A stretch of DNA of 36,886 bases from Gammaproteobacteria bacterium (lineage in GTDB: Bacteria; Pseudomonadota; Gammaproteobacteria; Pseudomonadales; Pseudohongiellaceae): the NCBI GenBank assembly GCA_024644515.1, contig JAHEHN010000016.1, positions 1 through 36,886 on the forward strand, given 5' to 3'. This document shows positions 8,043 through 36,295 of the stretch, piece after piece. Both the position numbers and the translations under genes were made by a program. Each line of letters opens with the position of its first letter. Within the stretch, counting starts at the first letter, position 1. Below the pieces are notes generated by a model. It was not told the origin of the DNA and did not search any database. It worked only from the letters and a program-made list of their open reading frames with translations.

Positions 8043-8192
8043 TAGCAGGTTGAAAGTGACAAGTCTCAAGATACAAGTCTCAAGCAGGCGACCACAGGTC
8101 GCCATGTCGGATGCGTCGCTGCGCTCCTTATCCGACCTACAGAAAACCATTGAAGCTAAAAAGAATGGTTGCTTGCCTCTTGTAACTTGAGA
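8043..8192 (-). repeat. Composite heptad/REP element, apparently complete copy
   Basis: Six 7-base units in register on the plus strand (8043-8084; for example TGACAAG, TCTCAAG, ATACAAG) are followed by a 7-bp hairpin GGCGACC/GGTCGCC (8087-8103), a REP-like palindrome (8106-8141, minus-strand orientation, inner stem GC-GCA-GC) and a spacer. Three mirror-image units (CTTGCCT, CTTGTAA, CTTGAGA; 8172-8192) close the element. Read on the minus strand, its blocks match those at 23909-23975 and 24112-24199 without gaps. It fills the whole gap between purD and coq7, starting 2 bases from the chosen coq7 start. Confidence 0.75.
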
Positions 8193-8208
8193 CTGGCGCG
8201 CTTACGCG

Positions 8209-9501
8209 TTAACGCGCCTTTTCGCGGGCGATTGCCCGATGACCGATATCCTTGCGGTAATACACATCTTCCCAGTCGATCTGGCTGGCCAGTTGATAGG
8301 CACGAGCCTGTGCCTGGGTGACGTCATCACCGAGGGCAGTGGCGCACAGTACCCTGCCGCCATTGGTGACAACATCCTGATTTTGCAACGACGTGCCGGC
8401 ATGAAAGATCTTGCTGTGGGCTGAGCCACTGTCTGACTCAAGCCCGCTGATTTTCTTGCCCTTGGCATAGGTATTCGGATAGCCACCGGCAGCCAGAACC
8501 ACGCCCAGAGCAGCTTTTTCATCAAATTCTATGCTGGTCTGATCCAGGGTTTTATTTAACGCAGCCTGACACAGGGCTACCAGGTCGGACTTCAGGCGCA
8601 TCATGATTGGTTGTGCTTCCGGGTCGCCAAAACGACAGTTAAATTCCACGACCTTTGGCGTGCCATCAGGCATTATCATCAGCCCTGCATAAAGAAAACC
8701 GGTATAGGTATTGCCTTCCTCTGCCATGCCTTTCACCGTGGGAAGAATAACCTCCGCCATGGCCCGGTCATGGATTTCGGGGGTAACAACGGGAGCGGGG
8801 GAGTAGGCTCCCATACCGCCGGTATTGGGACCAACATCGCCATCATCTCTGGCTTTGTGGTCCTGGGAAGTGGCAAAGGGCAGGGCATGGGTGCCATCTA
8901 CCAGGGCAATAAAACTTGCTTCTTCACCTTGCATAAACTCTTCAATGACCACCCGGTGTCCGGCCTCACCAAAACTGTTTCCCGATAGCATATCGCGGAT
9001 AGTGTTTTCAGCTTCTTCCTGAGTCTGGGCGATGATAACGCCCTTGCCGGCGGCCAGGCCATCTGCCTTGATGACTATCGGTGTCCCCTGTTCTTTCACA
9101 TAGGCAATGGCAGGCTCTACCTTGGTAAAATTTTGATAGGCGGCAGTAGGAATCTGATGGCGGGCGAGAAAGTCCTTGGTGAATACCTTGGAGCCTTCAA
9201 GCTGGGCTGCGCCTTTGCTGGGACCAAAACATTCCAGCCCCTGGCGTTGAAAATAATCAACAATGCCATCCACCAGCGGTGCTTCAGGACCAATAATGGT
9301 CAGGCCAACATTATTGCCTTTGGCATAGCGGGTCAGGCTTTCAAAATCTGTGATGTCCAGTGCCACATTTTTAATACCTGGCTCACCGGCGGTCCCTGCA
9401 TTACCCGGGACAACAAAAACAGTGTCTACTTGATTGGATTGCGAACATTTCCACGCCAATGCATGTTCACGTCCACCCGAGCCGATAATCATTACGTTCA
9501 T
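8209..9501 (-). CDS. purD: Phosphoribosylamine-glycine ligase (GARS)
   Basis: ATP-grasp enzyme that joins glycine to 5-phosphoribosylamine in purine synthesis. The 430-residue protein starts MNVMIIGSGGREHALAWK, and shows NAGTAGEPG, IGPEAPLVDGIVD, the ATP-grasp segments KADGLAAGKGVIIA and EEFMQGEEASFIALVDG, then GPNTGGMGAYSPAP and EFNCRFGDPEAQ with the metal ligands. It lies 42 bases after purH on the same strand, forming the usual purHD unit. Its last codons contain the 12-bp palindrome CGCGTTAACGCG, with no T-run after it. Confidence 0.97.
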   Translation of the reverse strand: MNVMIIGSGGREHALAWKCSQSNQVDTVFVVPGNAGTAGEPGIKNVALDITDFESLTRYAKGNNVGLTIIGPEAPLVDGIVDYFQRQGLECFGPSKGAAQLEGSKVFTKDFLARHQIPTAAYQNFTKVEPAIAYVKEQGTPIVIKADGLAAGKGVIIAQTQEEAENTIRDMLSGNSFGEAGHRVVIEEFMQGEEASFIALVDGTHALPFATSQDHKARDDGDVGPNTGGMGAYSPAPVVTPEIHDRAMAEVILPTVKGMAEEGNTYTGFLYAGLMIMPDGTPKVVEFNCRFGDPEAQPIMMRLKSDLVALCQAALNKTLDQTSIEFDEKAALGVVLAAGGYPNTYAKGKKISGLESDSGSAHSKIFHAGTSLQNQDVVTNGGRVLCATALGDDVTQAQARAYQLASQIDWEDVYYRKDIGHRAIAREKAR

Positions 9502-9543
9502 AATTAACCTTTAATTAAAGTGTTTATCCTGCATGCAGTTATA

Positions 9544-15661: not shown

Positions 15662-17005
15662 CTAGCGATCTTTGAGCTTTTCTTCCAGATAGTGGATATT
15701 GGCACCGCCTTTCCTGAAGCCTTCATCTTTCATGATGTCGACCTGAAGCGGAATATTGGTCTTTATTCCGTCTACCAGCATTTCACCCAGTGCATTCTGC
15801 ATTCTGCCAATGGCCACGTCGCGGGTTGGGCCAAAGGCAATAAGCTTGGCGATCAGCGAGTCATAATAGGGTGGGACGGTATAGCCGCTATAAATATGCG
15901 AGTCTACCCTGATGCCATTTCCCCCGGGAGAATGGAAAAGCTTGACGGTGCCGGGGCTAGGCATAAATGTATTCGGGTCTTCAGCATTGATGCGGCATTC
16001 AATGGCATGTCCAATAATACTGATGTCTTCCTGCTTCACAGACAGCTCCAGACCCGCCGCGATGCGTAATTGTTCCCTGACTATGTCAATGCCGGTAACG
16101 CGCTCAGTAACGGGATGCTCGACCTGCACACGGGTATTCATTTCAATAAAATAAAATTGGCCGTCTTCATAGAGAAATTCCAGAGTGCCGGCACCACGGT
16201 ATTTTATTTTTTCACAGGCCTTTATGCAGGTATCCATGATGCCTGCCCGGGTTTTCTCGTCAATGCCCGGGGCTGGTGCTTCTTCAACAACTTTTTGATG
16301 ACGACGTTGCATGGAGCAGTCGCGATCACCGAGACAAATGGCATTACCTCTGCCGTCGCCGATGACCTGAATTTCAACATGGCGGGGATTGCCCAGAAAT
16401 TTTTCCAGGTACACCACATCGCTGCCGAAATAGGATTTGGCTTCGCTCTTGGTAACCTGAATTGACTTGATCAGGTCTTCAGCCTTTTCAACAACGCGCA
16501 TGCCACGACCACCGCCGCCGGCCGCAGCCTTGATCATCACTGGAAAGCCAATTTTTTCTGCAAGGGCGAGGATTTCCTTTTCATCCTCTCCCAGGGGACC
16601 GTTAGAACCAGGGACAGTTGGAACGCCGGCTTTTTTCATGACGTCAATGGCGCTGACCTTGTCGCCCATGGAGCGAATGGTTTCGGCAGTGGGGCCAATA
16701 AAAATAAATCCACACTGTTCCACCTGTTCGGCAAAATCCGCATTTTCGGAAAGAAAGCCATAACCAGGATGTACAGCATCGGCATTGGTAAGTTCCATGG
16801 CACTGATCAGGGCCGGAACGTTCAGGTAACTGTCGGTAGAAGAGGCGGGGCCAATACAGACTGATTCATCAGACAACATGACATGCATCAGGTCTCTGTC
16901 AGCAGTTGAATGTACCGCGACAGTTTTAATGCCCATTTCCTTGCAGGCTCGAAGGACTCGCAGGGCGATTTCACCGCGGTTTGCAATTAATACTTTTTTC
17001 AACAT
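15662..17005 (-). CDS. accC: Biotin carboxylase subunit of acetyl-CoA carboxylase
   Basis: Carboxylates biotin on AccB using ATP and bicarbonate, at the start of fatty-acid synthesis. The 447-residue protein begins [20 protein letters not shown] and contains the ATP-grasp lid [45 protein letters not shown] and ECRINAEDP. The start at 17005 matches E. coli AccC (449 aa); an upstream in-frame extension to 17083 would overlap accB and is not conserved. It ends in TAG, after which the frame stays open into prmA. Confidence 0.97.
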
Positions 17006-17054: not shown

Positions 17055-17522
17055 CTAGACGATTGTGACAAGGGGCTGATCAAACTCGACGGGTTCCCCG
17101 TCTTCCACCAGGATTGCTTCTATGGTGCCAGCCTTGTTGGCTTCAATCTGGTTCATCATTTTCATGGCTTCGATAATACAAATGACATCACCGGCCTGTA
17201 CCTGCTTGCCCACTTCGATAAAAGCAGGGGAAGTAGGAGAGGGTGAGCGATAGAAGGTGCCCACCATGGGAGACTTAACGGCCGCACCTTTGTGCTCACT
17301 GGCACTGCTTTTTACTTCTGCAGAGTCACTGGCAGGAGCTGGCGCTGCGGCGGCAGGAGCAGGAGCTGGCGCTGCAGGAGCTTGAACATACTGGGGGGCA
17401 GGCGCGGAATAGGGGGAGTTGCGGCTGATGCGAACCGCTTCTTCGCCTTCCTTGATTTCTATTTCTGCCACGTCAGATGATTCAAGTAATTCGATAAGTT
17501 TTTTTACTTTTCTGATATCCAT
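17055..17522 (-). CDS. accB: Biotin carboxyl carrier protein of acetyl-CoA carboxylase
   Basis: Carries the biotin group between biotin carboxylase and carboxyltransferase. The 155-residue protein has a short N-terminal domain ([18 protein letters not shown]), an Ala/Pro-rich flexible linker (about residues 38-65) and a C-terminal biotinyl domain with the biotinylated lysine in [11 protein letters not shown]. It starts at ATG and lies 49 bases upstream of accC, the usual accBC operon. Confidence 0.97.
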
Positions 17523-23100: not shown

Positions 23101-23813
23101 TGGGGCTTGTTCCGGTCACCGCGAATGTCATCCTTGGATTGGGCGATGAAGTAAGATTTCGTGGCTTTGGCCTTGATCTGCAGCTTAACGGTGAACTGAT
23201 GCTTGAACAAAGTATCGACAGACCAATGCTGGCCCATGGCGAGCTGGCTATTCCGAATGGCAGCTATAGTCTTTACGGACAACGACTTAGCATCGAGAAC
23301 GGGAAGTTATTATTCCTCGGTAATCCTTTGAACCCTGCAGTGGATATCAGGGCGGTAAGGCAGACCTCGAACGCCTTGGTGGGTTTGCAATTGAATGGCA
23401 CCATTCGGAATTTGCAGGGGCAGTTATTTTCTGTTCCCGGCCTGCCTGAAAGTGAAATCCTTTCCTTACTGGTGACGGGTCGTTCTTTCCAGAATGCCGG
23501 TAACCAGGAGGGCGCAAACATGCTCAATGCGATTGCCCTGTTAAGTCTGGAAAAAGGCAATGGATTGACCAACAGTGTCAGAAAAGGACTGGGGCTGGAT
23601 ATGGTGGATATCAGTACCAGTAACGACTACCGTGATAGTGCTCTTGGTCTGGGCAAGTATCTGCGTCCCAACCTGTTCATGCGTTATGACATCGGCCTGT
23701 TTGACCGCGAAAACACCCTGACCCTGGAATATATCCTTACTGAGCGAGTAAAACTTGAGGTGCAAACCGGTGTAAGCCAGAGTGTGGATTTGACGTATAC
23801 GGTGGAGAAGTAA
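20115..23813 (+). CDS. tamB: TamB, translocation and assembly module inner-membrane subunit
   Basis: A 1232-residue AsmA-like protein that spans the periplasm from an N-terminal inner-membrane anchor (hydrophobic segment near residues 15-35) and partners TamA. The long middle is repetitive beta-strand with no catalytic motif, as expected for a bridge-like lipid-transfer groove. The C-terminal region is the DUF490/TamB type (GLVPVTANVILGLGDEVRFRG, MLAHGELAIPNGSYSLYGQ, LPESEILSLLVTGR, YILTERVKLEVQTG). E. coli TamB has 1259 residues. The start is GTG at 20115, overlapping the tamA stop (GTGA), so translation is coupled. The intact tamB frame argues against long-standing loss of tamA. Confidence 0.94.
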   Translation: MKPELMIRALKTTGKSLVFLLALVIFMLLIAVGTEAGSAWTVKRALQWVSGSSSYELSFEEMSGLLLDELSFTNLNLRDSETGMSMAAGNISVAWRPVALFDHALHIRNFQASQVVIDLPEVIEEQNDAAEKDIAAILQEIFSLPVTIQLDQAMIANISIRNGEMQRIARVSLAARVDSQSLGLQATLERDAASSISTDLVLSSTSYALEGTLGWRTVFSEMAFDGSLSLGGNLDELLVEHTLLAPVSLTSSGRITTGLLDGSLPAIALQHEIRDFVGAGFALPGLDQIESLTGRMTTAGTIEQLDLQGELDARLQDFGELSGSFDVSYQPDAIRLNQVSLDSQRLMLSALGEYELSAENSLSLDWTLENFTDGDLLKGLELVSVEGSGSINIDFANGQRKTLVSIAELAGEINSFPLSAEGKLALLDNSIEEINVNLAAGGNSLALSGIITPAMDLQWNLQAPALNRILSLVQGQANGEGRLRRTPASPQLNGIFNGTGIRYADDSVQLQLDRLQAEARYDGSDNRVELDFVNLIWGAGEQSVVFPRGELLASGTLPAHQVELDTTSSLGTFQLEAAGGYLQQSWDGEISAAEIQSIYGDWQLAQPLFISASEDRATLSEHCWAMTSFSACAQGSWMASAGASGEIILDDFPLSYLNNRQLIEDAGMNDILDVLDGRPKGLEDLLGEYAISLPQNSFIDGRVDVESSFSGLGADWQETALNVVLSPRDLLLGVVMEATEDSASPARVESYGLDEVQLDLNRESALWTLNAGFQVYVPEADGLDFQGAFKGQATLDDKESLAGDFELGFNNIAWLEAIVPNLLDPRVELKASGQISGNLTRPLLVFDANLAAASFELPEYGLLLSGIELALHSEQDNEITITGQAGSGTGQVSFNSQITTPFMSSRTIQFEVTGEDFQIINIPGTQVRVNPDLVLKYDNNTLDISGSLLMPQFDPDISSNMALVGNGSVSVSRDVVVVNLPPELQGSVNAPDDGLLGLVPVTANVILGLGDEVRFRGFGLDLQLNGELMLEQSIDRPMLAHGELAIPNGSYSLYGQRLSIENGKLLFLGNPLNPAVDIRAVRQTSNALVGLQLNGTIRNLQGQLFSVPGLPESEILSLLVTGRSFQNAGNQEGANMLNAIALLSLEKGNGLTNSVRKGLGLDMVDISTSNDYRDSALGLGKYLRPNLFMRYDIGLFDRENTLTLEYILTERVKLEVQTGVSQSVDLTYTVEK

Positions 23814-23818
23814 GATAG

Positions 23819-24199
23819 TCGCAAGTCTCAAGTCACAAGAAAAAAGATAAAGGAAAAAAGATAAAGGAAAAAGGAAAAAGGTGGGCGAGGCAGGTAGGCG
23901 GCAGAAAAAAATAAGAGACAAGAGGCAAGCAACCACTCTCTCAGGCTTCAATGGTTTGCTGGTGGTCGGATAAGGACCGCAGGGACGCATCCGGCAGGGC
24001 GAATTTAAATAGGATGCAGGAGACAGAATGCATGAGGAGGGCTCGTGGTTTGTTTGTGGGGTTGGGATTGAGATGGAATTTGGAGCCAGGTGGTGTGGGG
24101 ACAGTTTTTTTGTAGGTCGGATAAGGACCGCAGGGACGCATCCGACGTGGCGACCTTTGGTCGCCTGCTTGAGACTTGAGACTTGAGACTTGAGACTTG
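23819..24199. repeat. Expanded heptad/REP composite element
   Basis: This fills the gap between tamB and the dsbD-like gene. Nine 7-base units in perfect register cover 23819-23881 (TCGCAAG, TCTCAAG and TCACAAG, changing to AAAAAAG, ATAAAGG and AAAAAGG). Three more units lie at 23909-23929, then a REP-like palindrome (23965-23995), about 115 bases with no recognised content, a second palindrome (24112-24146), the hairpin GGCGACC-TTT-GGTCGCC (24149-24165) and four and a half CTTGAGA units (24168-24199). Left units read NNNCAAG and right units CTTGNNN, so the ends mirror each other, as at 8043-8192. No gene was found inside. Confidence 0.8.
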
Positions 24200-24207
24200 T
24201 AACTTTT

Positions 24208-24702
24208 TTATTCCGGCACTGTCAGTGTTATCGGTGTCGTCTGTAAGGGATAGCAATACAGGTCTTTTGCGCAGCCCTGGTGCTGCAGGGTGAAATTTGC
24301 GGTATTGTTTTCTACTGCCAGGGTCGTTAAAGGAAAACGAATCAACAGGCGCTCAAAGTAGACTTCCACTTCACCAAAAAATTCATCTTCTATTACTTTT
24401 CCTGCTGGTAATTCGGGCAGTGAATAAATATGGCCATTGCTGTCAACAACGCTAATACTTTTCTGGTAAAGGTAATAGCCTTCTTTTATTTCCCATAACA
24501 GTACTACGGTGTCAGGGGCCTCAATAAAAGTGCTCAAAGCAAAGGCTTCCTCTGCAGGGAGGATGCTGCTGCGAACTACGGGAAAACTGCTGGAACGGGA
24601 ATTGAGCAGGGAATCCTGCTGAGCCAGAGTACTAACAGGAAAGCCCATGCAGGCTGCTGCAAGCAGGAATGATTGGCAGGCAGTAATAAAAAAATGTTTC
24701 AT
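24208..24702 (-). CDS. Stand-alone DsbD N-terminal (alpha) domain protein
   Basis: The product has 164 residues: a signal peptide (about 1-28) and one domain like the periplasmic alpha domain of DsbD. Shared features are LPAEEAFALS, LLWEIKEGYYLYQKSI, VIEDEFFGEVEVY and the redox pair QGCAKDLYCYP (C144 and C150, spacing C-x5-C as in DsbD). The membrane (beta) and thioredoxin (gamma) domains of full DsbD are absent, and the frame ends cleanly. It may accept electrons from another membrane reductant or act as a thiol chaperone; this is inference. It lies 26 bases downstream of fabB on the same strand and probably shares its transcript. Confidence 0.8.
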   Translation of the reverse strand: MKHFFITACQSFLLAAACMGFPVSTLAQQDSLLNSRSSSFPVVRSSILPAEEAFALSTFIEAPDTVVLLWEIKEGYYLYQKSISVVDSNGHIYSLPELPAGKVIEDEFFGEVEVYFERLLIRFPLTTLAVENNTANFTLQHQGCAKDLYCYPLQTTPITLTVPE

Positions 24703-26818: not shown

Positions 26819-28267
26819 ATGGTAAGACCGGTCATTATGGCGGGTGGCGTTGGCTCAAGGTTATGGCCAGTCTCGCGCAAGTTGTATCCCAAGCAGTTTG
26901 TCTCTTTTCAACCGGGCTCCCCTTCGCTTTTTCAGCAAAGTCTTATGCGTCTGCAAGGGCTTGATAATATTGGTCCCGCCATTGTTGTTTGCAACCATGA
27001 ACATCGCTTTCTGGTGGCGGAACAGCTATTCAGTCTTGCTCTCGATTACGAGGCAGCAGATGTCACTATCATCCTCGAGCCGGAAGGTAAAAATACTGCC
27101 CCCGCAGTTGCCCTTGCGGCTCTGGCAGCAGCGGCAGAGGCAGCAGAGAAAGGTGAGGACGCCGATGATGTGGCTTTACTGGTGCTGGCGGCAGATCATG
27201 TCATGGGTGATATCCCTGCCTTTCATAAAGCCATTGGCCAGGGAGCCGGGCAGGCCGCCGCCGGTGCTCTCGTTACCTTTGGTATTGTGCCGGAGAAGCC
27301 GGAAACCGGATATGGCTATATTCGTCGAGGCGCGGTGGCAGGTGATGGTTTCAGCATTGAACGTTTTGTGGAAAAACCGGATCTGGAGACTGCAAAGGCT
27401 TACCTTGAAAGTGGCGAGTATTACTGGAACAGCGGCATGTTCATGTTTAGCGCCAGTACCTACCTGAGCGCACTTGAGAGTCACGCTGGCGAAATCCTTC
27501 AGATTTGTGAAGAGGCGTGGCAGCAGTGCACGGATGATCTTGATTTCAAGCGTATTCCAAAGGAGATTTTTCAGCGTTGTCCGGCGGATTCCATCGATTA
27601 CGCGGTGATGGAACATACTCGAAAAGGGGTAATGATTCCGCTGGATGCGGGCTGGAATGATCTGGGCGCATGGTCCGCGCTCTGGGATCATGGTGAAGGA
27701 GATGAACAAGGGAATGTCAGCCAGGGCGTCGTTATTCTGAAAGATGTCAGTGACTCCTATATTCATGCTGAATCCCGGTTGGTGTCGGTGATTGGCATGG
27801 AAGATGCTGTAGTAATAGAAACCCCGGATGTTGTGCTGGTATCGGCTAAAGACAGGGTCCAGGAAGTTAAAGATATTGTTGATATCATCAAACAGGCCGG
27901 CAGGCCGGAAACTGACAGTCATGTCAGGGTCTACCGCCCCTGGGGGTCCTATGAGTGGCTGGCAGATGGCAGCAGCTTTCAGGTCAAGCGTTTACGGGTG
28001 AACCCGGGTGAGGCGCTGTCGCTACAATTGCACCATAAGCGTGCAGAGCATTGGGTTGTAGTAGAGGGCACGGCTCTGGTGACCGTGGGCGAAGAAGAGG
28101 TCGTGCTGCAACAGAACCAGTCTACGTATATTCCGATAGGCACTAAACATCGCCTGGAAAACCGTGAATCTCATGAACTGATACTGATTGAAGTACAGTG
28201 CGGAGATTATCTTGGTGAAGATGATATTGTAAGGTTTGATGATGTCTACGGGCGCGTGCAGACTTAA
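26819..28267 (+). CDS. manC: Mannose-1-phosphate guanylyltransferase / mannose-6-phosphate isomerase
   Basis: A bifunctional enzyme (AlgA/ManC class, type II isomerase) of 482 residues. The N-terminal nucleotidyltransferase has MAGGVGSRLWPVSRKLYPKQF, FVEKPDLETA and YYWNSGMFMF. The C-terminal cupin isomerase (from about residue 365) has VYRPWGSYEWL, LHHKRAEHWVVVEGTA and IPIGTKHRLEN. Together they make GDP-mannose from fructose 6-phosphate via ManB (phosphomannomutase), encoded 1 kb downstream. The start is ATG with AAAAGGA 7 bases before it. The gene is divergent from fabA. Confidence 0.95.
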   Translation: MVRPVIMAGGVGSRLWPVSRKLYPKQFVSFQPGSPSLFQQSLMRLQGLDNIGPAIVVCNHEHRFLVAEQLFSLALDYEAADVTIILEPEGKNTAPAVALAALAAAAEAAEKGEDADDVALLVLAADHVMGDIPAFHKAIGQGAGQAAAGALVTFGIVPEKPETGYGYIRRGAVAGDGFSIERFVEKPDLETAKAYLESGEYYWNSGMFMFSASTYLSALESHAGEILQICEEAWQQCTDDLDFKRIPKEIFQRCPADSIDYAVMEHTRKGVMIPLDAGWNDLGAWSALWDHGEGDEQGNVSQGVVILKDVSDSYIHAESRLVSVIGMEDAVVIETPDVVLVSAKDRVQEVKDIVDIIKQAGRPETDSHVRVYRPWGSYEWLADGSSFQVKRLRVNPGEALSLQLHHKRAEHWVVVEGTALVTVGEEEVVLQQNQSTYIPIGTKHRLENRESHELILIEVQCGDYLGEDDIVRFDDVYGRVQT

Positions 28268-28273
28268 AAGCAG

Positions 28274-28361
28274 ATAAAGGATAAAAGTAAAAGGATAAAG
28301 GCAAGCAGGTTCAGGTAAATTCGTAAGTTTACCCCTTTATCTTTTTTCCTTTTTCCTTTTA
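28274..28361. repeat. Purine/pyrimidine heptad element with mirrored arms; possible terminator
   Basis: Four 7-base units (ATAAAGG, ATAAAAG, TAAAAGG, ATAAAGG; 28274-28301) are mirrored by four pyrimidine units (CCTTTAT, CTTTTTT, CCTTTTT, CCTTTTA; 28334-28361). Between them is a 32-base core with a GTAAA/TTTAC stem. The two arms can pair and end in T-rich sequence just after manC, so the element may act as a terminator. It is the same 7-base system as at 23819-24199 but without a REP palindrome. Confidence 0.7.
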
Positions 28362-28392
28362 GAGAAGAAACAGATTAGAGAAGAAACAGAAA
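28361..28392 (+). repeat. Two tandem 16-base direct repeats
   Basis: AGAGAAGAAACAGATT (28361-28376) is followed directly by AGAGAAGAAACAGAAA (28377-28392), with 14 of 16 bases alike. The reverse complement of its start, TTTCTTCTCTAA, also appears just after the palindrome at 30734, so it may be another module of the same repeat family. Confidence 0.6.
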
Positions 28393-29311: not shown

Positions 29312-30658
29312 TTGCAAACCAATACCTGTTTTAAAGCCTATGATGTGCGTGGGCGAATACCGGATCAGTTGAATGAGGAAGTTGCCTACCGGATTGGTCA
29401 GGCCTATGCGACTTTTATCAAACCCAAGGAAGTGGTGGTAGGTTATGACATACGCCTGAGCAGTCAGGCTTTATGTGCCGCGTTGACTCGTGGACTTACC
29501 GATTCCGGCGTCGATGTTTCCAATATAGGGCAGTGTGGTACCGAAGAAATCTACTTCGCTACGAGTTTTCTTGGTGTGGATGGCGGCATTGTTGTCACTG
29601 CCAGTCATAATCCGAAGGATTACAACGGCATTAAGTTTGTTCGCGAGAATTCCAAACCCATTAGCGCCGATACCGGGCTTGAAGATATTCGTAAACTGGC
29701 TGAGATGAATAAATTTGACATGGCTCCGGTGAAGGGCACGAACTCCCAGGTAGATGTTAAGAAGGATTACATCAAGCATCTGCTTTCCTATATTGATGTG
29801 AAAAAACTAAAGCCACTAAAAGTGCTGTGTAATGCCGGCAATGGTGGCGCCGGGCCGGTAATTGATTTGCTTGAGCCGCATCTGCCTTTTGAATTCATCA
29901 AGATGTATCACGACCCTGATGGTCATTTTCCCAATGGCATTCCCAATCCGCTGTTACAGGAAAACCGTCAGCCTACTACCGACAAATTATTGGAAGAAGG
30001 GGCCGATGTGGCAATCGCCTGGGACGGGGACTTTGATCGCTGTTTCTTTTTTGATGAAAAGGGCGGTTTTATAGAGGGCTACTATATCGTTGGTTTGCTG
30101 GCTGAAGCCTTCCTGAAGAAACAGCCGGGTAGCAAGATCATTCATGATCCGCGCCTGGTATGGAATACCCAGGCGGTTGTGGAAGCCAATGGAGGAGAAG
30201 CTGTTCAGTGCAAGTCTGGCCACGCCTTCATAAAAGAGAAAATGCGAGAAGTGGATGCTGCCTATGGCGGTGAAATGAGCGCCCATCATTATTTCCGCGA
30301 TTTTTATTACTGCGATAGCGGCATGGTGCCCTGGTTACTGGTACTGGAAATAATGAGCGAGTCTGGCAAGCCGCTCTCGCAACTGGTAGAGAAATGTATC
30401 GAACGCTTTCCAGCCAGTGGCGAAATCAATCGTGAAGTGAGCGATGCCAAGGCCGTGATAGATAAGGTTTTTGCCCACTATAAAGACGATGCAGACGAAA
30501 TCGATTATACCGATGGCGTCAGCGTCAGTTTTGCACAATGGCGTTTTAATCTGCGCATGTCCAACACTGAGCCGGTGGTGCGCCTCAACGTTGAATCCCG
30601 CGGGGATATTGCCTTGATGGAAGCGAAGACGAAAGAAATTCTCGACCTGATGGCTTAG
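29312..30658 (+). CDS. manB: Phosphomannomutase (ManB/CpsG type)
   Basis: Interconverts mannose 6-phosphate and mannose 1-phosphate, supplying ManC. The 448-residue protein aligns with E. coli CpsG over its length: CFKAYDVRG, the phosphoserine loop [15 protein letters not shown], the metal loop [41 protein letters not shown] and the phosphate-binding [17 protein letters not shown]. The start is TTG at 29312 with AAAGGGAG upstream; no nearby ATG would preserve [10 protein letters not shown]. Dual use with glucose phosphates, as in AlgC, is possible but the CpsG match is closer. Confidence 0.94.
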
Positions 30659-30664
30659 AAACAG

Positions 30665-30734
30665 TCGCAAGTCACAAGTTTCAAGCTTGAATGTTTTTGT
30701 AGGTCGGACAAGGCTTGCAAAGCCGTCATCCGAC
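30665..30734 (+). repeat. Heptad units plus REP-like palindrome after manB
   Basis: TCGCAAG, TCACAAG and TTTCAAG stand in register at 30665-30685, followed by CTTGAAT. The palindrome (30699-30734) has outer arms GTCGGA/TCCGAC and an inner hairpin GGCTT-GCA-AAGCC, which differs in base pairs from the other copies but stays fully complementary. It starts 6 bases after the manB stop and may also help end transcripts. Confidence 0.7.
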
Positions 30735-30766
30735 ATTATTTCTTCTCTAAGGGCTAAAACGTCTTT

Positions 30767-36199: not shown

Positions 36200-36241
36200 A
36201 TCAAAGACAAAGGATAAAAGATAAAAGATAAAGGAAAAAAG
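36200..36241 (+). repeat. Six purine heptad units
   Basis: ATCAAAG, ACAAAGG, two ATAAAAG, ATAAAGG and AAAAAAG stand in perfect 7-base register. They are the same unit type as at 23840-23881 and 28274-28301. No REP palindrome accompanies them. Confidence 0.7.
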
Positions 36242-36284
36242 TGACAGCTTCCTGATTTTTTCGAAGATCATGCTTCGGCTGTCA
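36235..36284 (-). terminator. Probable terminator of the NYN gene, using a heptad as its T-run
   Basis: TGACAGC (36242-36248) pairs with GCTGTCA (36278-36284), with an inner CGAAG/CTTCG stem (36262-36266 and 36273-36277). On the minus strand the hairpin is followed directly by CTTTTTT, which is the reverse of the heptad AAAAAAG. It lies just after the NYN gene stop. Confidence 0.6.
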
Positions 36285-36295
36285 TTGAAGATTTG

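Follow-up and report, generated by a model that had tools for sequence, protein, structure and literature searches.

What are the arrays of 7-nt units that lie between the genes of this contig, and what decides where they stand? The question is raised by positions 23819-24199 of contig JAHEHN010000016.1 (36,886 nt, here called the window) from Gammaproteobacteria bacterium GCA_024644515.1 (Pseudohongiellaceae). A sequence-only reading of the window had described this gap and four others as one dispersed heptameric system, held in a single register and confined to the space between genes. We compared the window with further loci of the same genome, with its relatives and with other phyla. Period 7 was found far in excess of chance, and arrays of opposite orientation followed one order, as an inverted repeat of fixed polarity close behind genes. 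The earlier reading had overlooked this inverted order, the position at gene 3' ends and the palindromic cores between some arms. The heptads may well be slippage-prone arms of intergenic inverted repeats at gene ends, tolerated or useful as 3'-end hairpins; we prefer this reading and hold it with nearly even confidence.

Period 7 is enriched between genes

The window is one contig (C1) of a 2.71-Mb genome (G000; 159 contigs, 98% complete), from which we examined 61 loci (953,092 bp, 35% of the genome) with 615 gaps totalling 106,647 bp. Since 39 of these stretches sit on contigs previously known to hold matches, the set of 20 contigs picked by number (213 kb) carries weight. The gaps of the 61 loci held 72 period-7 runs, against a mean of 0.3 and a maximum of 2 in 10 dinucleotide shuffles. 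Periods 6 and 8 were at or near chance (9 runs vs. 4.6 shuffled and 2 vs. 0.1), periods 4 and 5 gave 42 vs. 33.7 and 34 vs. 38.4, and periods 9, 10, 11 and 12 showed a small excess (4, 1, 3 and 3 runs, each vs. 0.0). In the number-picked contigs, 8 runs of period 7 were counted (0.15 shuffled), with 1, 0 and 1 for periods 6, 8 and 9 (1.2, 0.0 and 0.05 shuffled). Series of at least three cores C[CT]T[GT], or the reverse complement, were spaced by 7 nt in 91 cases vs. 3.0 shuffled; spacings of 5, 6, 8, 9 and 10 gave 3, 3, 7, 4 and 4 vs. 2.7, 2.6, 1.3, 1.5 and 2.4, and spacing 14, a harmonic of 7, gave 48. The dispersed period-7 system is thus real, as the scan against shuffled sequence proposed with the earlier reading indicated.

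We designated as R the orientation NNNCAAG/NNNAAGG and as Y its reverse complement. The frequent units, in Y-strand spelling, were CCTGCAT, CCTTTAT, CTTGTAA, CTTGAGA, CCTTTTT and CTTGTGA. Near-perfect CCTGCAT/GATGCAG arrays of about 16-17 units, exceeding the other listed arrays, occurred on two contigs (L205:9673-9791, L213:1-123 and L213:875-1000) and are probably recent expansions.

The restriction to gaps was nearly complete: called coding DNA contained 15 period-7 runs in 847 kb, several of them in spurious-looking ORFs such as L198:17172-17447, which overlies an element. This strong intergenic bias is as in the short tandemly repeated repetitive (STRR) sequences. A metagenome assembly artefact would fit the heptads at 5 of 69 contig ends, compared with 1.9% of random 160-nt windows, but the same loci carry elements in the separately assembled sister genome G002, and heptads are also present in the single-contig genome G161 and in named complete chromosomes, so that an artefact is hardly credible.

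At 23819-23881 the register was indeed unbroken through nine exact 7-mers (TCGCAAG TCTCAAG TCACAAG AAAAAAG ATAAAGG AAAAAAG ATAAAGG AAAAAGG AAAAAGG), and the heptads in the other four gaps were recovered with Tandem Repeats Finder or by direct reading (Table 1). The idea of one system in unbroken register did not hold in general. Arrays of the CAAG, AARG and CAGG classes that join within 12 nt were in register at 3 of 8 joins in the own genome (p=0.09) and, in sister genomes, at 3 of 5 (p=0.02), with offsets of 1-4 nt at the other joins. A single continuous register for all classes was rejected as a general rule on the own-genome joins; the unit classes resemble distinct modules that fall into phase at some joins.

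R arrays precede Y arrays

Pairs of adjacent arrays at most 300 nt apart were scored for order, with duplicates removed (overlapping genus loci had entered earlier counts). The ratio of R-Y to Y-R was 19:0 in the own genome, 17:0 each in the sister species and in three further gammaproteobacterial genera (G161, G093 and G373), and 24:2 across phyla, where such pairs occurred in 22 of 107 loci. Sister-species loci were chosen by homology to the window or by a core or heptad match, except for 140 kb of G005, and the stretches of the three other genera were placed partly on matches. The cross-phylum set comprised at least 116 stretches selected on CTTG[AT][AG]A units, which makes the observed spread a lower bound; three of 116 loci, from the same species as G002, were left out of its counts of order, polarity, gap context and outermost-arm matching. 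Six Desulfonema loci were kept separate in the duplicate-free order and polarity counts, were included in the cross-phylum counts of gap context and outermost-arm matching, and were counted both ways in the polarity of CTTGNRA-class arrays. An earlier cross-phylum count of partner pairs gave 20 R-Y (2 from G002) and 4 Y-R, all from Desulfonema.

In own-genome gaps with both arrays at three or more cores, R preceded Y in 18 of 18; when two-core partners were allowed, R-to-Y adjacency was seen in 35 gaps and Y-to-R in 3. The order rule is strand-symmetric, that is, it describes an inverted repeat of fixed polarity. Cross-phylum pairs were mostly simpler, with a short loop between the arms, and several lay directly past an apparent stop codon.

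Arrays lie past the 3' ends of genes with R reading outward

Within 40 nt of a gene 3' end in the own genome, the array read outward was R in 50 cases and Y in 2, compared with 7 and 7 at 5' ends. At 30 nt or less and with duplicates removed, the outward R:Y ratio at 3' ends was 43:2 (43 of 45 R) in the own genome, 28:2 in sister species and 17:3 in the other genera; at 5' ends it was 5:4, 1:4 and 4:4, respectively, and 1:0 in Desulfonema. The median distance of sense-R arrays past the 3' end was 10 nt, and 44 of the 60 lay no more than 20 nt away. Among own-genome gaps of at least 60 bp, the share with heptads was 20 of 69 for convergent, 30 of 268 for tandem and 5 of 104 for divergent gaps (convergent vs. 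divergent, p=1.4e-5).

A reading-frame filter was considered as the cause of this polarity. The CAAG units CAAGTCT, CAAGTTA, CAAGTCA, CAAGTCG and CAAGTTT are stop-free in all frames in the R direction, the Y units CTTGAGA, CTTGTGA, CTTGTAA and CTTGAAA contain a stop, and CTTGNRA-class arrays inside called ORFs were sense R in 27 of 27 cross-phylum and 3 of 3 own-genome cases. Such a filter would favour Y past a gene's stop codon, the opposite of the data; it therefore leaves the 3'-end polarity unexplained and was rejected.

Passive slippage, in which polymerase slips most easily in 7-nt steps and arrays without structural meaning persist where they are harmless, would account for a common period despite very different units, for turnover between species, for the scarcity of arrays in coding DNA and divergent gaps, and for the weak matching between arms described below. 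The footprint or contact length of the polymerase has been suggested as the cause (Mrazek, 2007, as cited in PMC4679880 and PMC4692102). Slippage alone predicts neither the R-then-Y order in all four sets nor the 43:2 outward polarity, and some genomes also carry other periods: G093 has four period-6 and three period-9 runs beside 14 of period 7, and G373 has five period-6 runs beside three of period 7. We consider passive slippage an unlikely sole explanation.

G-quadruplex formation, proposed for the GGGAATC repeats of Xanthomonas and Nostoc, could apply to AAGGATA and CAGGATG, which carry GG and might form two-tier quadruplexes at most. GG is absent from both strands of the common units CTTGAGA, CTTGTAA, CTTGTGA and CTTGAAA, whose sequence excludes quadruplexes and which obey the same rules; CTTGNRA-class arrays at 3' ends were R in 27 cases and Y in 2. 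Quadruplexes are thus very improbable as the basis of these arrays.

Predicted folding and terminator-like sites

The heptad arms formed the outer stem of a strong predicted RNA fold at 8052-8196 (z -6.57). Folds were also predicted at 28268-28365 (z -3.95) and 24116-24205 (z -3.45), and the region of a lone array, 36200-36290, folded weakly (z -1.15). Among gene 3' regions, the median z was -2.13 with both arms (8 of 15 below -2), -1.7 with one array (18 of 42) and -0.67 without heptads (19 of 70 sampled). Terminator-like sites were predicted at 11 of 30 convergent 3' ends with heptads, compared with 9 of 60 without (p=0.03), although the heptad-bearing regions are longer (median 174 vs. 98 nt).

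Tight arm-to-arm co-variation was rejected as a general rule because its statistical support was weak, although individual loci match exactly (L292, near 12886) and the two arms at gap 9502 differ in class together. Order and polarity were followed far more strictly than complementarity between the arms.

Some arms enclose REP-like palindromes

The heptad arrays are part of a recurring module order, complete in a minority of the 64 heptad gaps (three contig-start gaps were blank): [CAAGNNN]n, [AAGGAWA]n, a G-rich linker, [CAAGAGG]n and CAACC..GGCTTCAATGG.., followed by a palindrome GTCGGATAAGG..GCATCCGAC like the repetitive extragenic palindromes (REP), often GGCGACC..GGTCGCC, and then [CTTGAGA]n. 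REP-like palindromes numbered 42 in 953 kb, as a multi-copy extragenic family. Of 490 gaps of at least 60 bp, 29 contained a REP-like palindrome, 60 contained heptads and 19 contained both, with 3.6 expected (p=2e-12). In another assembly, Gammaproteobacteria bacterium SI072_bin121 (JABIPQ010000027.1, L133), R heptads, a GGCGATC-type palindrome, a REP-like palindrome and Y heptads were found.

These features would suit a mobile non-autonomous element, such as a miniature inverted-repeat transposable element (MITE) or a REP/bacterial interspersed mosaic element (BIME), in which heptad arrays happen to serve as the terminal inverted repeats. The common core, the recurring module order, the REP-like palindromes in the same gaps and the similar cores at loci without shown orthology favour it, as do gaps in G001 that lack the element; inverted arms are present. 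Transposase searches argued against it. The Y1 transposase model PF01797, which includes the REP-associated tyrosine transposases (RAYT), had no match in G000 (98% complete; the E. coli control was positive), G001 or G003, and 1-10 matches each in G002, G004, G005, G161, G093 and G373. Fourteen of the 20 listed matches were examined, one yielding no ORF, and none of the 13 Y1_Tnp ORFs had a period-7 run within 200 nt upstream or 250 nt downstream. RAYT mobilisation was rejected on these grounds. Many arrays are also coreless, and the order rule holds in other genera with other units. We regard a mobile origin as quite unlikely. Y1 (RAYT-like) genes at L308, L309, L311 and L313, which belong to sister and other genomes, have copies of strings such as GGGGTCAGA or GGGACAGTGACTTTTTC on their flanks; these strings look like a further family of repeats.

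Elements turn over in place between species

The copy-number and unit comparison envisaged in the earlier reading was made on sister species. The flanking DNA of G002 is about 80-87% identical to that of G000, and its elements lie in the same gaps with altered copy numbers and modules. Of 13 core matches in G002, six had an orthologous core in G000, three an orthologous flank without a recognised core, and four had no orthologous flank in the G000 DNA examined. Five of the six orthologous pairs had the same orientation. The sixth, the window core 8085-8171, was inverted: its best match among the G002 cores compared was its ortholog on the opposite strand (0.938, next 0.875), so that in-place inversion of a core between species was observed in a single case. 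One core on contig C88 was closer to the neighbouring G002 element (0.99) than to its ortholog (0.938), a pattern suggestive of exchange between elements.

In G001, the counterpart of gap 30659-30766 measures about 12 bp and that of 9502-9543 about 11 bp, and neither has an array. At 9502-9543, which holds no array in G000, G002 and G005 carry CAGG..CCTGCAT arms and G004 carries GTACAAG..CTTGTAC arms; the inner segment is similar, and both arms differ in class together in G004. The hairpin at 28268-28361 was present in G000, G002, G004 and G005 and absent in G001.

CTTGARA runs were found in 4 of 37 relatives' genomes, all of the own genus, with none in G001 or G003 and one in G005. G005 has other unit classes (10 period-7 runs in 172 kb), G003 has AGAGGAA arrays, and G001 showed no period-7 arrays in 26 kb. 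Class-wide, 12 of 369 genomes in 9 of 272 genera were positive. G373 and G161, from other gammaproteobacterial families, had 116 and 55 CTTGNRA matches with mixed units resembling the present ones.

Loss of the hairpin nuclease SbcCD was considered and dropped. Among the 15 genomes examined, none of the 12 that belong to the genus or bear arrays had an SbcD match reaching the cut-off; G003 and G004 had weak matches below it, and G007, of the same family, had a real one. The absence is uninformative because no more than 43 of the 369 genomes sampled from the class reach the cut-off.

The change of units bears on another possibility, that the heptads are regularly spaced sites for a DNA- or RNA-binding protein, such as a cold-shock-type protein, each molecule of which would occupy one heptamer, or, at AAGGAUA/CAGGAUG, a CsrA-type protein. 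These two units resemble the CsrA motif, and the R units would fall in the mRNA just past the stop codon. Binding of heptamer direct repeats by CspB is cited in PMC4679880. Units that differ between species, even at one gap, argue against a protein site, which we judge improbable.

Features within the window

The coordinates of the arrays, cores and palindromes are given in Table 1. The ten window proteins scanned are mostly ordinary, e.g. purH, galU, phosphomannomutase and beta-ketoacyl-ACP synthase, and Rfam models gave no match in the window at the gathering score. Tandem Repeats Finder also reported one unrelated short period-7 case at 15791-15807. A perfect 16-bp tandem duplication, TTAGAGAAGAAACAGA, at 28359-28390 directly follows a Y arm and is single-copy in the G002 gap; a 21-bp tandem repeat of 2.5 copies lies at 17331-17382 in an ORF region.

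Table 1. Heptad arrays and palindromes of the window (TRF, Tandem Repeats Finder, period 7).
Feature	Position	Strand	Remarks
R-type heptad arm (CAAGTCTCAAGATACAAGTCTCAAG)	8060..8084	+	Direct reading; pairs with the right arm in the predicted fold 8052-8196
Element core (contains CCATTGAAGC..GGTTG)	8085..8171	-	Inverted relative to the orthologous G002 locus
GGCGACC-type palindrome in core 8085-8171	8087-8103		
REP-like palindrome in core 8085-8171	8106-8141		
Y-type heptad arm (CTTGCCTCTTGTAACTTG)	8172..8189	+	Direct reading; close to the 3' end of minus-strand gene 8209-9501
R-type array, nine heptads	23819..23881	+	5 nt past the stop codon ending at 23813; CAAG units pass into AAGG-type in register; TRF 23817-23839, 23839-23881
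Inner R-type heptads (CAAGAGGCAAG)	23919..23929	+	
First REP-like palindrome (GTCGGATAAGG..GCATCCGGC)	23965..23995	+	Direct reading
Second REP-like palindrome (GTCGGATAAGG..GCATCCGAC)	24116..24146	+	
Palindrome GGCGACCTTTGGTCGCC	24149..24165	+	
Y-type array (CTTGAGA)n	24168..24205	+	Stops just short of the 3' end of minus-strand gene 24208-24702; TRF 24168-24199
R-type arm (GATAAAGG units) of heptad hairpin	28273..28301	+	After gene 26819-28267; TRF 28273-28301
Y-type arm (CCTTTWT units), partner of 28273-28301	28334..28361	+	Upstream of galU; TRF 28334-28360
R-type array (CAAGTCACAAGTTTCAAG)	30668..30685	+	After gene 29312-30658; direct reading
REP-like palindrome (GTCGGACAAGG..CATCCGAC)	30703..30734	+	Direct reading
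Lone R-type array (AAAGATA units), no Y partner	36203..36241	+	Flanked by two minus-strand ORFs, the 5' end of one lying 36 nt away and the 3' end of the other 54 nt away; breaks the 3'-end rule; TRF 36203-36241

Proposed explanation

We propose that the heptads are, or are left over from, the arms of inverted repeats between genes. An R array would begin close past a stop codon and a Y array of opposite polarity would lie further downstream, the two being separated by a short loop, by a small hairpin or by a REP-like palindrome. Copy number could shift in 7-nt steps, most simply through replication slippage, and exchange or template switching between arms may occasionally swap the unit class and flip the core. 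The element would be retained where a strong hairpin behind a gene is harmless or useful, and would be rare between divergent genes; its likeliest use would be as a (bidirectional) 3'-end or terminator-like hairpin. The analysis shows the period, the order and position of the arrays, turnover at orthologous gaps, predicted folding and one in-place inversion; slippage, copying between arms and the terminator-like role are inferred.

Several results weigh against this explanation. When three or more cores were required, 42 of the 64 heptad gaps showed one array. Desulfonema magnum (NZ_CP061800; L073, L126 and L173) showed the opposite order (R-Y:Y-R 0:2), with an R:Y ratio of 1:3 within 30 nt of 3' ends in Desulfonema. 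Across phyla the 3'-end polarity was weaker (32:14 within 30 nt), 5' ends were likewise polarised (27:10), and the convergent-gap excess was not found: arrays lay in 9 convergent, 10 divergent and 44 tandem gaps, with 73, 91 and 291 such gaps as background. Agreement of unit class between the two arms exceeded that of swapped pairs only slightly: the outermost arms were of the same class in 21 of 35 cases vs. 16.9 expected (p=0.08; p=0.11 across phyla), and for adjacent arms the p values were 0.24 (31 own-genome pairs) and 0.04 (58 pairs pooled). In the 28268 hairpin, compared in four species, 3 of 30 predicted pairs had changes on both sides and the covariation term was slightly unfavourable (+0.69). 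Terminator-like sites were not commoner in tandem gaps with heptads (3 of 30) than without (19 of 237). Finally, genes were crude longest-ORF calls, which are less dependable in GC-rich loci.

Comparison with known systems

The strong predicted folds past genes are like those of intrinsic (bidirectional) terminators, and the R-to-Y order resembles their A-rich, stem, T-rich order. Unlike terminators, the elements have 7-nt tandem arms, and a terminator-like excess accompanies heptads in convergent gaps only. As an extragenic palindrome present in multiple copies, the core GTCGGATAAGG..GCATCCGAC is like the REP/BIME palindromes of the E. coli type, from which the elements differ in their heptad arms, in the lack of a RAYT match in G000 and in that heptads also occur without a palindrome.

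Heptanucleotides were the most abundant longer tandem class in most of the bacterial genomes examined by Mrazek (2007, via PMC4679880) and are 'over-represented in many' according to PMC4692102, and neither PMC4679880 nor PMC4692102 gives a settled cause. The sequence-only reading had known of no such mixed family in gammaproteobacteria, yet heptamers are in print for Xanthomonas (PMC4692102) and for Beggiatoaceae (PMC4679880). Tandem heptamers between genes are also shared with the cyanobacterial STRR of Calothrix, as cited in PMC4692102.

The closest likeness is to the GGGAATC/GGGANTN and GGGGA(C/T)T heptamers of Xanthomonas and Nostoc, which according to Rehm et al. (2015, PMC4692102) have the same layout, inverted pairs of fixed polarity close past stop codons, as found here. 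There they are read as quadruplex formers; the oligonucleotides form quadruplexes, and the authors found no regulatory role. Unlike those repeats, the main CTTGNRA units described here are free of GG on both strands, and GGG occurs only in rare listed units (e.g. CTTGGGA, 3 counts). In addition, a single genome carries several unit classes, some arms enclose REP-like palindromes, one core was inverted in place, and both arms of one locus were of another class in one species.

The TAACTGA direct repeats described from Beggiatoaceae, Cyanobacteria and Bacteroidetes (MacGregor, 2015, PMC4679880) are likewise a patchy, intergenic heptamer with gammaproteobacterial members, and share five of seven bases with the Y-type TAACTTG here. 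They differ in having one near-invariant unit that lies mostly just before start codons, with a proposed role in translation, and a single inverted repeat is reported in the main genome; near-gene arrays here are mostly at 3' ends. The TAACTGA units before starts have Y-like polarity, and one post-stop set in a Bacteroidetes genome is reversed. No TAACTGA array was among the period-7 runs of the 61 loci, and the core-based unit list is unable to show this unit.

Among article titles and abstract openings, from a literature mostly outside subscription journals, none described heptad-armed hairpins with REP-like cores. What is new here is mixed-unit heptads as polarised inverted-repeat arms at gene edges, some with such cores. 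Because GG-free units share order, polarity and stop-codon position with the G-rich Xanthomonas repeats, a quadruplex explanation is not general; layout, not quadruplex capacity, is the common factor across these heptamers. Since a similar layout recurs in other bacteria with different units, it may outweigh the unit sequence. A sequence-independent rule might even be entertained, doubtful as we find it: bacterial heptameric repeats would be gene-edge hairpin arms, R then Y with R reading away from the gene, made and homogenised by one conserved process in 7-nt steps (slippage and arm-to-arm template switching, with occasional flips of the DNA between the arms); STRR, GGGAATC, TAACTGA and the present units would then all be local versions of a single phenomenon. 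Polymerase slippage alone predicts no polarity, and 'why seven, and why there' becomes a testable question for bacterial heptamers.
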